A DNA stretch of 64,000 nucleotides, taken from contig SUTQ01000008.1 in assembly GCA_015062805.1 (NCBI GenBank), forward strand, positions 1 to 64,000, given 5' to 3'. Position numbers and translations under genes: made by a program. Of the stretch, positions 11,342 to 57,263 are shown piece after piece; the stretch's first letter is position 1; every line of letters begins with the position of its first letter. The DNA comes from Methanosphaera stadtmanae. GTDB lineage: Archaea; Methanobacteriota; Methanobacteria; Methanobacteriales; Methanobacteriaceae. The notes beneath the pieces were generated by a model that was not told the origin of the DNA, did no database searches, and saw only the letters and a program-made list of their open reading frames with translations.

Positions 11342-12565
11342 GTGGTAGCAGAATCACTACTAAACACAGGAGATACAGCTTGGATTTTAATTTCCACAGC
11401 ATTAGTGATGATAATGACCCTTCCAGGGTTAGCATTATTTTATGGAGGTATGAGTAAAAAGAAAAATGTTTTAAACACAATGTTCTTATCTCTAACAGCA
11501 TTCGCCATAGCAAGTGTAATCTGGGTAATATTCGGATATCAATTTGCATTTGGAGAAACAATTAACGGATTTTTAGGAGCACCAACTAATTTCTTCCTAA
11601 CAGGAATCGGTTTGGATATGCTTCACCCAGACACAGGAATACCTGAATTGCTTTTCATTGCATTTCAAGCAACATTTGCAGCAATTACTGTTGCACTAAT
11701 ATCAGGAGCAGTAGTCGGACGTATGAAAGCAAAAGCCTGGATAATATTTACAGCAATATGGTTAACCTTGGTTTACGTACCTGTAGCACATTGGGTATGG
11801 GGTGGAGGATGGCTATACCAATTAGGAGCCTTAGACTTTGCAGGAGGAGCTGTAGTACACCTTAACTCAGGTATAGCTGCATTAGCATTAATATTAGTAC
11901 TTGGACCACGAAAAGACCAAAGATTATTACCTCACCATTTAGGATATGTTGTTATTGGAGCAGCACTATTATGGTTTGGATGGTTCGGATTCAATGGTGG
12001 ATCAGCCCTAGCAGCAAATGGATTAGCTGCAAATGGATTGATTACAACAAATGTAGCTGCAGCAACTGCAATGTTGGGCTGGATTTTAATAGACCTCTGG
12101 AAATCAGGAAAACCAACAGTACTTGGTTCAGCTACTGGTGCAGTCGCAGGATTGGTTGCAATTACACCGGCAGCAGGATTTGTTGATATTCCCGCATCAA
12201 TTATAATCGGATTTACAACTGTCTTTGTATCATATTTCGCAATTTCATACTTAAAACCAAAACTTGGATATGATGATGCATTGGATGCATTTGGTGTACA
12301 TGGACTATCAGGTACGTGGGGAGCTATAATGACTGGAGTTTTCGCAACACCTGCAATTGGTGGGGTTGCAGGACTTTTATATGGAAACCCTGAACAGGTA
12401 GTAATACAAATTATCAGTATAATAGCTGTAGCAGTTTACTCATTCATATTAACTTATGTAATTGCTAAAGTTTTAGACAAAACATTTGGTATTAGAGTAG
12501 ATTCAGAAACAGAAATAGAAGGTTTAGATGTTAAAGAACATGAAGAACTTGGTTACAGATTATAA
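11342..12565 (+). CDS. amtB: Ammonium transporter AmtB
   Basis: Trimeric Amt/Rh-family ammonium channel of the cytoplasmic membrane, 407 residues, with about 11 predicted helices. Seen: [12 protein letters not shown] in the first loop, [20 protein letters not shown] in the pore region with the first pore histidine in [19 protein letters not shown], and [13 protein letters not shown] with the second pore histidine. GTG start: GGAGG at 11330-11334 is seven bases upstream, and an ATG at 11340 hits a stop at once. glnK follows after 15 bp, the conserved amtB-glnK pair in which GlnK plugs the channel. The NrpR-type operator at 11241 predicts nitrogen control. Confidence 0.97.
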
Positions 12566-12580
12566 TAGGAAGATGATAAT

Positions 12581-12910
12581 ATGAAACAGATAACAGCCAT
12601 AATAAGACCTGAACGATTAGATGCAGTAAAAGATGCGTTGGAAAAAGTAGATTGTAAAGGAATTACCGTAACGGATGTTAAAGGAAGAGGGGAACAATTA
12701 GGTATTGAAGAAAAATACAGGGGAAAAAGTTATAGGATAGATCTTCTTCCAAAAGTAAAAATTGAAACCGTTATTCCGGACAATACTGTGGAAAATGTTA
12801 TAACCGCCATTTGTGAAGCAGCACATACTGGAAATATGGGAGATGGAAAAATATTCATTAGCAATATAGAAGAAGTCATTAAAATAAGAACAAAAGAAAG
12901 AAGACGCTGA
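12581..12910 (+). CDS. glnK: Nitrogen regulatory PII protein GlnK
   Basis: PII signalling protein, 109 residues, binding ATP/ADP and 2-oxoglutarate and regulating the adjacent AmtB. It has the family start MKQITAIIRPERLDAVKDAL, the T-loop GRGEQLGIEEKYRGKSY (about residues 37-53) with the tyrosines of the uridylylation region, LLPKVKIETVI, and the C-terminal signature TGNMGDGKIFI. GGAAGATGAT precedes the ATG. It is the second gene of the amtB operon and should share its nitrogen control. A basic tail (KERRR) is slightly unusual. Confidence 0.97.
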   Translation: MKQITAIIRPERLDAVKDALEKVDCKGITVTDVKGRGEQLGIEEKYRGKSYRIDLLPKVKIETVIPDNTVENVITAICEAAHTGNMGDGKIFISNIEEVIKIRTKERRR

Positions 12911-13086
12911 TGAATATATCTACCAAAACATGAATGGATATCAAGAAATAATGACATTTTAATTTGCCATAATATTTGACCTCCCTTCATTCTTTTTTTT
13001 AAAAAAAAAATAATTAATGCTTAAGGAAAAAATAGATTTTGAAGTAATTTAAAAAATATAATTAAAAAAGTAAAAAAATAGACTAA

Positions 13087-52548: not shown

Positions 52549-53595
52549 ATGTCGATTAACAGAAGTTATTAACAAATCAAGTATATCTTCTATATTTTCT
52601 ATTTTTTTATTTTCTATAGATACTCCCAAATAAGATGTTAACAAAATGTTAACAGGAATTAATATATCATTTATGTCCAACAAACCCAACTGAACCTCAT
52701 CAATTAAATTTATTACGCTACTAACAAAGGCAACGTTTTGGCTGTTTTTATTAAATTTATAAAAATTATATAGATAATCCTCTTTATCAGAAACCACTTG
52801 AATATAAAAATCATCAAAGCCAATATTAAAACGAGACAATCGACTCAATACTGTTTTTTGAAAATCCTCGGACATGAAAGTTTGCAAATATAATGCTTCT
52901 TTTGTTGCTTCACGAACACTTTTTGCTATCAATTCACCCAATTTAGAATGTTTTCCAGCATTTTCTAAATGATTATCACTATCCTTGTTAGAAATTATAC
53001 ATATTCCATCAGTGCCCGTACCCGTAGCAATATTGGATGAATATTGACTTTCAATTTTTAAATCTTGAAGAACAGAACTTTTAGCTTCAGTAGCTGTAAT
53101 AGAAGCAGTGACTAAAGAACCATCCTGCAAATTTGCATCAATAATCGTGATAATGTTAATTGTTCCAAAATGATTGAAATAATTATTATTATATTCGTAA
53201 AAAGAAGCATTATCACCTGCTTTAACTGCATTTTTATCTGCACCTGCAGTAACAATTGAAGTAACTTTTAATTCTTCATATTTTTTAATGGATATAGCTA
53301 AATTATCCATACAGGCTGAAGTTAAGAGTCCAGTAGTTTTTTCAGGATTTAAACCCAAATATTTAAATTTATTCTTTTGGAAATCGTTAAAATCCCCATC
53401 AGACACATCATCATAATCTGTACCATCTACAGTTAAATTTACAACATTTTCCATATTATGACAAATTCCTCCATTTAGCCATGAGGATATTAACAAATTA
53501 TTATCTTTTTTTAAATTTATAACAATAGAATCTTCTCTTTTTATTAAATTAAAAAATAAGTCGTTAATTATTGTCGCAGAAAAGTCTTTAATCAT
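52537..53595 (-). CDS. cbiZ: Adenosylcobinamide amidohydrolase CbiZ
   Basis: Archaeal enzyme that cleaves the side chain of salvaged adenosylcobinamide to cobyric acid, 352 residues. Family motifs: LISSWLNGGICHNMENVVNL, GLLTSACMDNLAI, IVTAGADKNAVKAGD, ATEAKSSVLQDL, ATGTGTDGICIIS and GKHSKLGELIAKSV, all within the first 230 residues. The last 120 residues are an extra helical part without a motif I know. Methanogens using methanol or methyl-CoM pathways need corrinoids, so salvage is expected. A tandem pair of GTTAAC sites lies in the coding sequence at 52636-52655. Confidence 0.9.
   Translation of the reverse strand: MIKDFSATIINDLFFNLIKREDSIVINLKKDNNLLISSWLNGGICHNMENVVNLTVDGTDYDDVSDGDFNDFQKNKFKYLGLNPEKTTGLLTSACMDNLAISIKKYEELKVTSIVTAGADKNAVKAGDNASFYEYNNNYFNHFGTINIITIIDANLQDGSLVTASITATEAKSSVLQDLKIESQYSSNIATGTGTDGICIISNKDSDNHLENAGKHSKLGELIAKSVREATKEALYLQTFMSEDFQKTVLSRLSRFNIGFDDFYIQVVSDKEDYLYNFYKFNKNSQNVAFVSSVINLIDEVQLGLLDINDILIPVNILLTSYLGVSIENKKIENIEDILDLLITSVNRHLFD
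52636..52655. repeat. Satellite GTTAAC pair inside cbiZ
   Basis: ATGTTAACAAAATGTTAACA, with two GTTAAC cores 11 bp apart (52637 and 52648). The same 20 bases occur at the start of the array at 55723. Single GTTAAC cores also lie at 54139 and 54244 in nadM. Confidence 0.6.
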
Positions 53596-55723: not shown

Positions 55724-56329
55724 GTTAACAAAATGTTAACAATTTGTTTAACTCTTAAAAATAGTTAACAATCTTTTTTTTGAAACTTTTTTTTTGAAAA
55801 CATAATGTTAACAAAACAAATAATTAGTTAACAGAGATCTTGAAAATTTTTTTAATTTAGATAATACCCGAGATTGCTGTTAACATTTGCAAACTTTTTT
55901 TAAACAATAAAATTTGAATTTATTATCTTGTTAACAAAATACAAAAAAATGAAAACTGCTAAAACATAACCAAATTATCATTTTAAAACAGTTTAGTTTA
56001 TAATAATATCATTAAGAATATTGATGTTAACAAAAGTTAACAATAAAAACCATATAGTTAATTAAATATTTTTTAATGTTAACAATTAAAATATTATGTT
56101 AACAAAAAATTTAAAAATCAAAACATATTGAAAAATATTAAAACATTTGTTAACAATATTTATATAGTAGGCAGTATAAAAATATGTATAGGAAAAAATG
56201 TTAACAAAAAGTTAACTCTAAAAACATGATAAAAAATCAGAATTCTAAAAAATACGGAAGATGAAAGATTCTCAGATATTATGTTTTCAGTCTTTTATTA
56301 ATTGTTTTCATTGTTAACAAAAAGTTAAC
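55724..56329. repeat. Helically phased GTTAAC iteron array
   Basis: Sixteen exact GTTAAC cores, nearly all within GTTAACA(A/T), start at 55724, 55735, 55764, 55807, 55827, 55879, 55930, 56026, 56036, 56078, 56098, 56149, 56200, 56211, 56313 and 56324. Spacings are near multiples of about 10.35 bp. Near matches at 55746, 56057 and 56344 fall on the same phase. There is no gene in this 680-bp gap. The pattern fits binding of many regulator dimers on one DNA face. Confidence 0.85.
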
Positions 56330-56369: not shown

Positions 56370-57263
56370 ATGACTTCTGGACAAGCTACTGCAAGAATAA
56401 AAAATATTGAAGAATGGCATAAATTCAAAGAAAACGCCGAACGAAATGGAATAAAAATTGGTGAAGCTTTAGAACAAATTTTAGTTGCATACAATAATGA
56501 TACCTTAGTTGACAAGAATGAATTAGAAAATCTTCAAAAAGAGTATGACCTTTTATTAAAAAAAGTAGAATCTTCAGAAAAAACAGTAGTCGATATACAA
56601 GAAAAAAACAATAATTTACAAAAAAGAATAGACGAATTAAATAATTCAAATAGTCTTTTAAATAAAGAAAATAATTTTCTAAAGGATAATAATACAAACT
56701 TAGAAAATAAATTAAAAGAGTATGAAAATAATATTAAAAATATCACTGAAGAGAATAATAATTTAAAAATTGAAAATTCAGATAACACTAATATTTCCGA
56801 TCAACTTGAAAATACTGTTAAGAAATTACAAGAAGTTCAAGAAGAAAACAAAAAACTAGTTAAAACAAACAAAGAACTAGAAAATTCCAATCACCAATTA
56901 ATTGAAGAAAACATTAAATTAAAAGGATTATCAGATGTTCCTGAAAAAGAGAAAAAATTACTACAACAACAATATGACAATCTTGAAGAATTATATGATA
57001 ATCTAAAAAGTGATAATTCAGTATTAAACGACTCTTTAAAAACATTAACTGATGAGTTAAAACAACAACAAAAAGACACAAGAACTGCTAGAAGTGATTA
57101 CAAACATATTGTCGAGAACCTTAACAAGTTACATGAAGAGTTCAATGAAATTCAAAATGAAAATAAACAATATAATGTAATTTTTGCAGAAATCAAAAAA
57201 ATGTCAATAATGGAAAGAATTCTTGGAAAATATCCTGATGATATTAAAGAATTAAAACCATAG
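56370..57263 (+). CDS. Ribbon-helix-helix/coiled-coil protein, candidate array-binding protein
   Basis: 297 residues. Residues 3-45 (TSGQATARIKNIEEWHKFKE, then NAERNGIKIGEALEQILVAY) match a ribbon-helix-helix DNA-binding pattern: a short strand then two helices with G-I-K-I before the second. Residues about 50-265 are an unbroken, Asn/Lys/Glu-rich coiled coil. The last 25 residues (IKKMSIMERILGKYPDDIKE) form an amphipathic end. AAGGTG lies nine bases before the ATG, and the last GTTAAC sites lie 40-55 bp upstream, so autoregulation is likely. The layout recalls DNA-segregation adaptors, but no ParA-type ATPase is nearby. Fold call is mine, from sequence. Confidence 0.65.
   Translation: MTSGQATARIKNIEEWHKFKENAERNGIKIGEALEQILVAYNNDTLVDKNELENLQKEYDLLLKKVESSEKTVVDIQEKNNNLQKRIDELNNSNSLLNKENNFLKDNNTNLENKLKEYENNIKNITEENNNLKIENSDNTNISDQLENTVKKLQEVQEENKKLVKTNKELENSNHQLIEENIKLKGLSDVPEKEKKLLQQQYDNLEELYDNLKSDNSVLNDSLKTLTDELKQQQKDTRTARSDYKHIVENLNKLHEEFNEIQNENKQYNVIFAEIKKMSIMERILGKYPDDIKELKP

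Follow-up and report, generated by a model that had tools for sequence, protein, structure and literature searches.

The window analysed here, a stretch of 64,000 nucleotides, carries an array of GTTAAC sites followed by the gene of a putative array-binding protein, in the following called the reader (Table 1). The earlier note had described the locus as a ribbon-helix-helix (RHH) and coiled-coil open reading frame behind a phased array, and this description was borne out by a gene for 297 aa and by 16 sites with a best period of 10.35 bp.

Table 1. Positions of the array, the promoter element and the reader gene with its parts in the window
Feature	Position	Strand	Remarks
GTTAAC array, 16 sites (consensus tgTTAACa)	55724..56329	.	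probable binding array of the reader; phased at ~10.35 bp
TATA-like TTTATATA	56159..56166	+	directly after GTTAAC at 56149, within the array; inferred as probable reader promoter
Reader gene, 297 aa, ATG start, intact	56370..57263	+	RHH, coiled coil and conserved C-terminus
Residues 1-46, predicted RHH DNA-binding domain	56370..56507	+	AlphaFold2 model and VIA-align superposition
Residues 49-277, predicted long coiled coil, two helices with a break at 136-141	56514..57200	+	full-length AlphaFold2 model; first part fast-evolving
Residues 240-297, conserved C-terminal end MSxMeRiLGkYPddIKEL	57087..57260	+	in every subtype; probable docking surface

All 16 exact GTTAAC sites upstream of the reader gene lie within 55724-56329. 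The whole window contains 36 GTTAAC compared with 19.2 +/- 4.3 expected (maximum 28 in 100 shuffles), so that nearly all of the excess is accounted for by the array. Successive sites in the array are spaced by 11, 29, 43, 20, 52, 51, 96, 10, 42, 20, 51, 51, 11, 102 and 11 bp, and the four pairs at 10-11 bp mentioned in the earlier note were all located there (55724/55735, 56026/56036, 56200/56211 and 56313/56324). A period equally strong or stronger was found in none of 5000 uniform placements. The array upstream of the type-A orthologue is kept in all seven genomes that have the cassette of array and reader at this chromosomal site (site A, between an HD-domain gene and guaB). An alignment of the arrays from five genomes showed a mean column identity of 67%, with diverging spacers and seven invariant GTTAAC (55764, 56026, 56149, 56200, 56211, 56313 and 56324).

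Some further features of the array were noted. Within 55764-56200 the spacings 43-20-52-51 return about 271 bp later as 42-20-51-51, as if an ancient doubling had occurred of which the sites alone were retained. A block around TACGGAAGATGAAAGATTC (56254-56282) is conserved among the arrays and contains no GTTAAC. A fifth GTTAAC pair at 11 bp (52637-52653) was noted 3 kb away from the array, inside a CbiZ-domain gene; in genome G006, too, one pair lies apart from the array, at a distance of about 3 kb.

It appears reasonable that the array overlaps the probable promoter, as had been proposed: the TATA-like element abuts the site at 56149 and is followed by four GTTAAC before the reader start codon. 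A TATA-like element is present in six of the seven site-A arrays, in five of these six directly after a GTTAAC. An array surrounding the probable promoter, together with GTTAAC pairs limited to the reader locus and its contig, could be taken as the oversized operator of a plain autorepressor. We consider this very unlikely, because 15-24 sites over 600-800 bp go far beyond what an operator needs, because an operator would not account for the long coiled coil of the reader or the strong constraint on its C-terminal half, and because a purely self-regulating gene would not be expected to persist and spread as a unit.

Predicted structure of the reader

Structure prediction with AlphaFold2 (alignment of 40 sequences) for the first 60 residues of the reader returned an extended segment, helices at residues 13-25 and 30-42 and the start of a coiled coil with a pLDDT of 90.5, in agreement with the RHH N-terminus that the earlier note had expected. 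VIA-align superposed this head with Arc (1baz; 1.5 Å over 41 residues), CopG (2cpg; 1.7 Å over 42) and PutA (2rbf; 1.7 Å over 42) at Z scores of about 5; the matches also included ParG and MatP, the latter weakly (Z 3.4-4.0). A fold missing from the VIA-align list was not counted as absent. Foldseek listed mostly RHH proteins for the head, but none at E <0.001. As the VIA-align Z scores reach only about 5, the RHH assignment rests on the model, the superposition and the sequence pattern taken together, and on this basis it is a well-supported prediction. The full-length model (pLDDT 83.8, pTM 0.29) predicts helices at 49-135 and 142-277, corresponding to the long coiled coil proposed before, and a short C-terminal element.

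Searches with the window protein in Pfam, NCBIfam and PHROGs revealed chance matches to coiled coils only (18 Pfam families to E 0.1), a sequence search of the PDB likewise detected only coiled coils, and the RHH head had no Pfam match. Among type-A readers, residues 47-190 are 54% identical, the N-terminus 83% and the C-terminal half 91%; between readers of types A and B (see below) the identity is 38% for residues 1-46 and 68% for the C-terminal half. The first half of the coil seems free to change, as would be expected for a spacer between two binding surfaces. A C-terminal amphipathic helix that binds the membrane is a feature of pSK1 Par and RocS; in the readers, the last residues rank 0-8 in hydrophobic moment among 246-314 sequence windows (six proteins), but coiled-coil stretches score alike. 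A downstream ORF of 98 aa was dropped as a partner or part of the unit, as a homologue was detected only in G006 among the fetched loci.

Reader types and their arrays

A sequence search of 41 genomes revealed relatives of the reader in 17, all of them Methanosphaera. With a profile of the C-terminal 75 residues, members were detected in 18 of 20 Methanosphaera genomes, with up to six per genome, and over the whole order in 23 of 150 genomes and three of 19 genera; the five genomes outside Methanosphaera match more weakly. With the same profile no member was found in G002 and G011 (97-98% complete), hence the cassette is dispensable. The family of array plus reader is apparently undescribed: no prior report appeared among the literature matches listed for Methanosphaera segregation, megaplasmid or centromere and for archaeal RHH or coiled-coil plasmid partition, a selection with subscription journals mostly outside.

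The C-terminus is kept throughout the family, and each N-terminal type has its own array motif (GTTAAC, GTRYAC, AATATTAC, GGTAAGAT or TRTAAAACA). The GTTAAC-type (A) reader is found in seven genomes, in all of which the upstream region contains 15-19 GTTAAC per 800 bp. All seven contain paired GTTAAC-N4-5-GTTAAC, solely on the contig of the reader, and seven genomes lacking a type-A reader contain none; in the genome of the window (G000) four of five such pairs lie inside the array. Type B readers from four other genomes have a different head and a GTRYAC array (12-15 per 800 bp). The corresponding numbers of sites per 800 bp are 16-19 of AATATTACA for type T3a, 18-24 of GGTAAGAT for T3c, 14 of TRTAAAACA for T6 and seven of GGTAACAT for T3d; the array motifs of the distant paralogues are AATATTACA, AATATTCC, GGTAAGAT, GGTAACAT and TRTAAAACA. 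A table of motifs against readers, made for 26 loci selected among the 48 whose start was resolved (including eight of the 25 T2 and T4 loci), is near block-diagonal, each motif being close to zero at other types except close relatives. Similar heads go with similar motifs, as seen for KKVSLSL and KRVSLNI with GGTAAGAT and GGTAACAT.

In a motif-blind test of single loci, from which ten loci were excluded as remnants only or as C-terminal matches without a resolved N-terminus, 20 of 47 upstream regions beat all 100 shuffles. Of the T2 readers one in 17 passed, and of the T4 readers one in eight. Pooling the upstream regions revealed an enrichment of AAAAACA (76 compared with 15.7 expected) and AAGTATG (19 compared with 1.6) for T2, and of AATGTTG (14 compared with 0.7; seven of seven loci) for T4. 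The same C-terminal element also occurs in other Methanobacteriaceae genera on an N-terminus that does not look like RHH and has no Pfam hit (L083:170-760 and L084:7280-7966); by eye we take this N-terminus to be AbrB-like, which suggests that whole DNA-binding heads are swapped.

Helical phasing was searched between 9 and 13 bp with 5000 uniform placements per array; this null takes no account of minimal spacing, and the tests are not independent because the arrays are related. Best periods were 10.35-10.45 bp for the site-A arrays (n=7) and 10.45-10.55 bp for the B arrays (n=4). Placements as strong as the array numbered 0, 68, 29, 0, 14, 1510 and 176 per 5000 for site A and 232, 0, 0 and 0 for B. 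Phasing was accordingly not significant in the site-A array L029 (1510/5000), and was weak also in L031 (232/5000) and L030 (176/5000). The site set of a different site caller (EM) gave 10.75 bp for L031 and 12.1 bp for the B array L034. The array on plasmid pNP174 is an 11-bp tandem with long runs at this spacing.

From the presence and absence of sites and readers, and from the change of reader type with motif type, we strongly infer that the reader binds the GTTAAC array as its cognate site. The protein can thus stand as the array reader that the earlier note saw in it, but not as a lone one, since it belongs to a family of cassettes on chromosomes and on a plasmid.

Genomic sites, plasmid pNP174 and NTPases

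At site A without a cassette, the HD and guaB genes are adjacent in six of eight genomes; the remaining two are a contig fragment and a genome in which no HD gene lies within reach. The site B cassette lies between c35 and c36, which are adjacent in three of six genomes without a cassette there, the remaining three having no c35 in the examined stretch. Insertion of array and reader as one unit appears well supported by these sequence comparisons. T2 readers occupy one constant site (17 loci) and T4 readers another (eight loci). No neighbouring gene, including an NTPase, is common to the different cassette sites. Decayed or truncated reader C-termini at G015:C1:392912-393118 (six stops) and G003:C1:525500-525664 point to cassette loss.

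The fixed position of sites A-D in many genomes, the presence of several different readers in one genome and the RHH chromosome organiser MatP among the structural matches could indicate that the readers organise the chromosome in the manner of MatP or RacA, tethering or looping it at fixed addresses, and do not segregate a replicon. This seems distinctly unlikely to us, as each reader has one dense array and no scattered sites, as a plasmid carries a cassette too and as individual sites gain or lose the cassette.

The plasmid pNP174 of Methanosphaera sp. ISO3-F5 (174,118 bp, circular) encodes a reader annotated as hypothetical protein (PXD04_RS23160). It contains 26 exact GGTAAGAT, 24 of which lie in the 605 bp just upstream of the reader. 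Tandem GGTAAGAT-N3-GGTAAGAT was found in two of 20 Methanosphaera genomes, the same two in which this reader type occurs. On pNP174 we detected no ParA-type match (PF13614, PF01656) and no partition gene among the annotated features (139 by the count of the record); open frames of at least 100 codons contained neither a deviant Walker A nor a tubulin signature. A cassette on a plasmid without a recognisable ParA-type or tubulin partition NTPase argues for a role in inheritance.

Two observations were made around the readers. An archaeal histone gene lies, possibly by chance, within a few kb of the reader at four loci including pNP174 (L046:3080-3286, L038:14338-14553, L032:7780-7977 and L033:7879-8076). 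The plasmid-type reader loci also encode short proteins of 192-206 aa (L038:5581-6966 and 12486-13082, L040:461-1886, L046:5084-5662). Inspection by eye suggests RHH-like starts and coiled coils in some of them, and some face the array from the opposite side.

On the chromosome, the array locus is 287-470 kb away from Cdc6 (17-19% of the chromosome; G008, G009 and G015), and the array was dropped as a candidate replication origin because Cdc6 is far away. Its AT-rich, iteron-like character, and the fact that some members reside on the plasmid or share a contig with defence-like genes, might suggest part of an origin or of a defence or selfish element. With this distance to Cdc6, no catalytic domain found in the window protein (Pfam, NCBIfam) and no relative of the reader in viral contigs, such a role is barely conceivable.

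The absence of an NTPase gene from the window and from the neighbourhood of the reader, as stated in the earlier note, was confirmed for ParA-type families: in G000, all matches to PF13614 and PF01656 lie outside contig C28. Its suggestion of a co-occurring ATPase encoded elsewhere held in so far as the genome has a ParA, but this ParA has a partner of its own and is not simply the missing one. In all five genomes searched for both, the distance between Cdc6 and the chromosomal ParA (about 260 aa) is 18-24 kb. This ParA is followed by a protein of 106-123 aa starting with GRGLDALI in four of five genomes checked (G000, G003, G008 and G015). From the cassette it is separated by hundreds of kb (G008, G009, G015) or lies on another contig (G000). 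The GRGLDALI sequence presumably resembles the ParA-binding end of ParB; the small protein (L022:927-1256, L125, L126, L128) belongs to no Pfam family. As the sole partner of the readers, the chromosomal ParA was demoted because of this partner gene.

The readers might still be adaptors for a motor in trans, with a C-terminus that binds the chromosomal ParA or another host NTPase and with cassettes that serve as additional parS-like sites of one shared motor. RHH adaptors of ParA are known, for example SegB (PMC12284271). A ParA near Cdc6 in each of the five genomes, ParG among the structural matches and a C-terminus conserved across subtypes, which fits one common partner, are consistent with such an arrangement. 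However, RHH partners of ParA usually contact ParA via an N-terminal tail, whereas the constant part of the readers is the C-terminus, and the ParA is already provided with a small partner gene in four of five genomes. We therefore regard a motor in trans as rather unlikely.

Proposed function and comparison with known systems

We propose that the cassette is a self-contained, motor-less system for DNA positioning or partition, which is probably autoregulated and works like pSK1 Par and RocS with another DNA-binding fold; we give this explanation slightly better than even credence. The cassette would combine a centromere-like array with the gene of its own reader. RHH-headed reader dimers would bind to GTTAAC sites lying on one helical face, and in the multivalent complex formed on the array every coiled-coil tail would present the same conserved C-terminus. 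This end could tie the DNA to a host structure common to all members (membrane, division machinery, nucleoid or an NTPase in trans), and this tie would position or segregate the replicon. Binding of the reader around the promoter would also repress the reader gene. A segregation role of the cassette appears likely; autorepression and DNA positioning or partition are put forward less firmly.

Against the view of a single centromere, constant chromosomal sites of many genomes hold between two and six members, and the array locus described here lies 17-19% of the chromosome away from Cdc6. As a tentative extension, possible rather than probable, the cassettes could be interchangeable motor-less 'centromere barcodes', in which the RHH head would be the address and the constant C-terminus would lead to one cell structure; each chromosomal site or plasmid would then be positioned independently, with no cross-talk or incompatibility.

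For most archaea, little is known about how chromosomes and large plasmids are segregated. If true, the proposed function would mean that abundant gut methanogens mark DNA for inheritance in yet another way, one that does without a dedicated motor, and the family would represent a natural series of protein-site pairs for reading RHH recognition. The C-terminal element shared by all readers would give a direct handle on the host structure, and pNP174 together with the isolated host strain ISO3-F5 makes the question testable.

Among known systems, MatP is an NTPase-less DNA-binding coiled-coil protein that organises or anchors the chromosome. The sites of MatP and RacA are spread over a chromosomal domain, whereas no matS-like dispersal was seen here, the GTTAAC pairs being found only on the contig of the reader. 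KfrA acts on a single operator and not on an array. RacA likewise organises and anchors chromosomes as a coiled-coil DNA-binding protein without NTPase, with a MerR-type winged helix-turn-helix (PMC11500499). According to PMC7821693, KfrA of IncP-1 and IncU plasmids is an autorepressor with a proposed positioning role; it resembles the readers in its DNA-binding head and long coiled coil, but the KfrA N-terminal domain had no Pfam match in the window protein or the pNP174 reader.

The archaeal SegAB system is similar in its RHH protein SegB, which binds centromeres and whose own locus is preceded by palindromic sites (PMC12284271). SegB differs, however, in its adjacent SegA ATPase and in sites scattered over the chromosome, where the Methanosphaera cassette lacks a neighbouring ATPase gene and has its sites in a single dense array. 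ParR-parC combines an RHH protein with 10-11 bp repeats (R1, pB171), and parC of R1 flanks the par promoter (PMC9426499). The predicted RHH fold and the repeats are present in the cassettes as well (11-bp tandem on pNP174); in contrast to ParR-parC, no ParM-like gene adjoins the cassette, the reader has a long coiled-coil tail and the array precedes the reader gene itself.

Single-protein partition is described for Par of the low-copy Staphylococcus plasmid pSK1 and for RocS, which acts on the Streptococcus chromosome (PMC11500499). With these the readers share an N-terminal DNA-binding head, a coiled coil, a conserved C-terminal end and the lack of an adjacent NTPase (PMC11500499). pSK1 Par and RocS have a MerR-type winged helix-turn-helix and DUF536, whereas the confident model of the reader predicts RHH and no MerR-type winged helix, and DUF536 had no match in the window protein (Pfam to E 0.1) or the pNP174 reader (four families to E 0.05). 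Unlike pSK1 Par and RocS, Methanosphaera has several cassettes of different specificity per genome. By its defining features the cassette belongs neither to pSK1 Par/RocS (head fold, no DUF536) nor to ParR-parC (no adjacent NTPase). By analogy, it would be closest in its working to pSK1 Par/RocS, and in its DNA part to ParR-parC.
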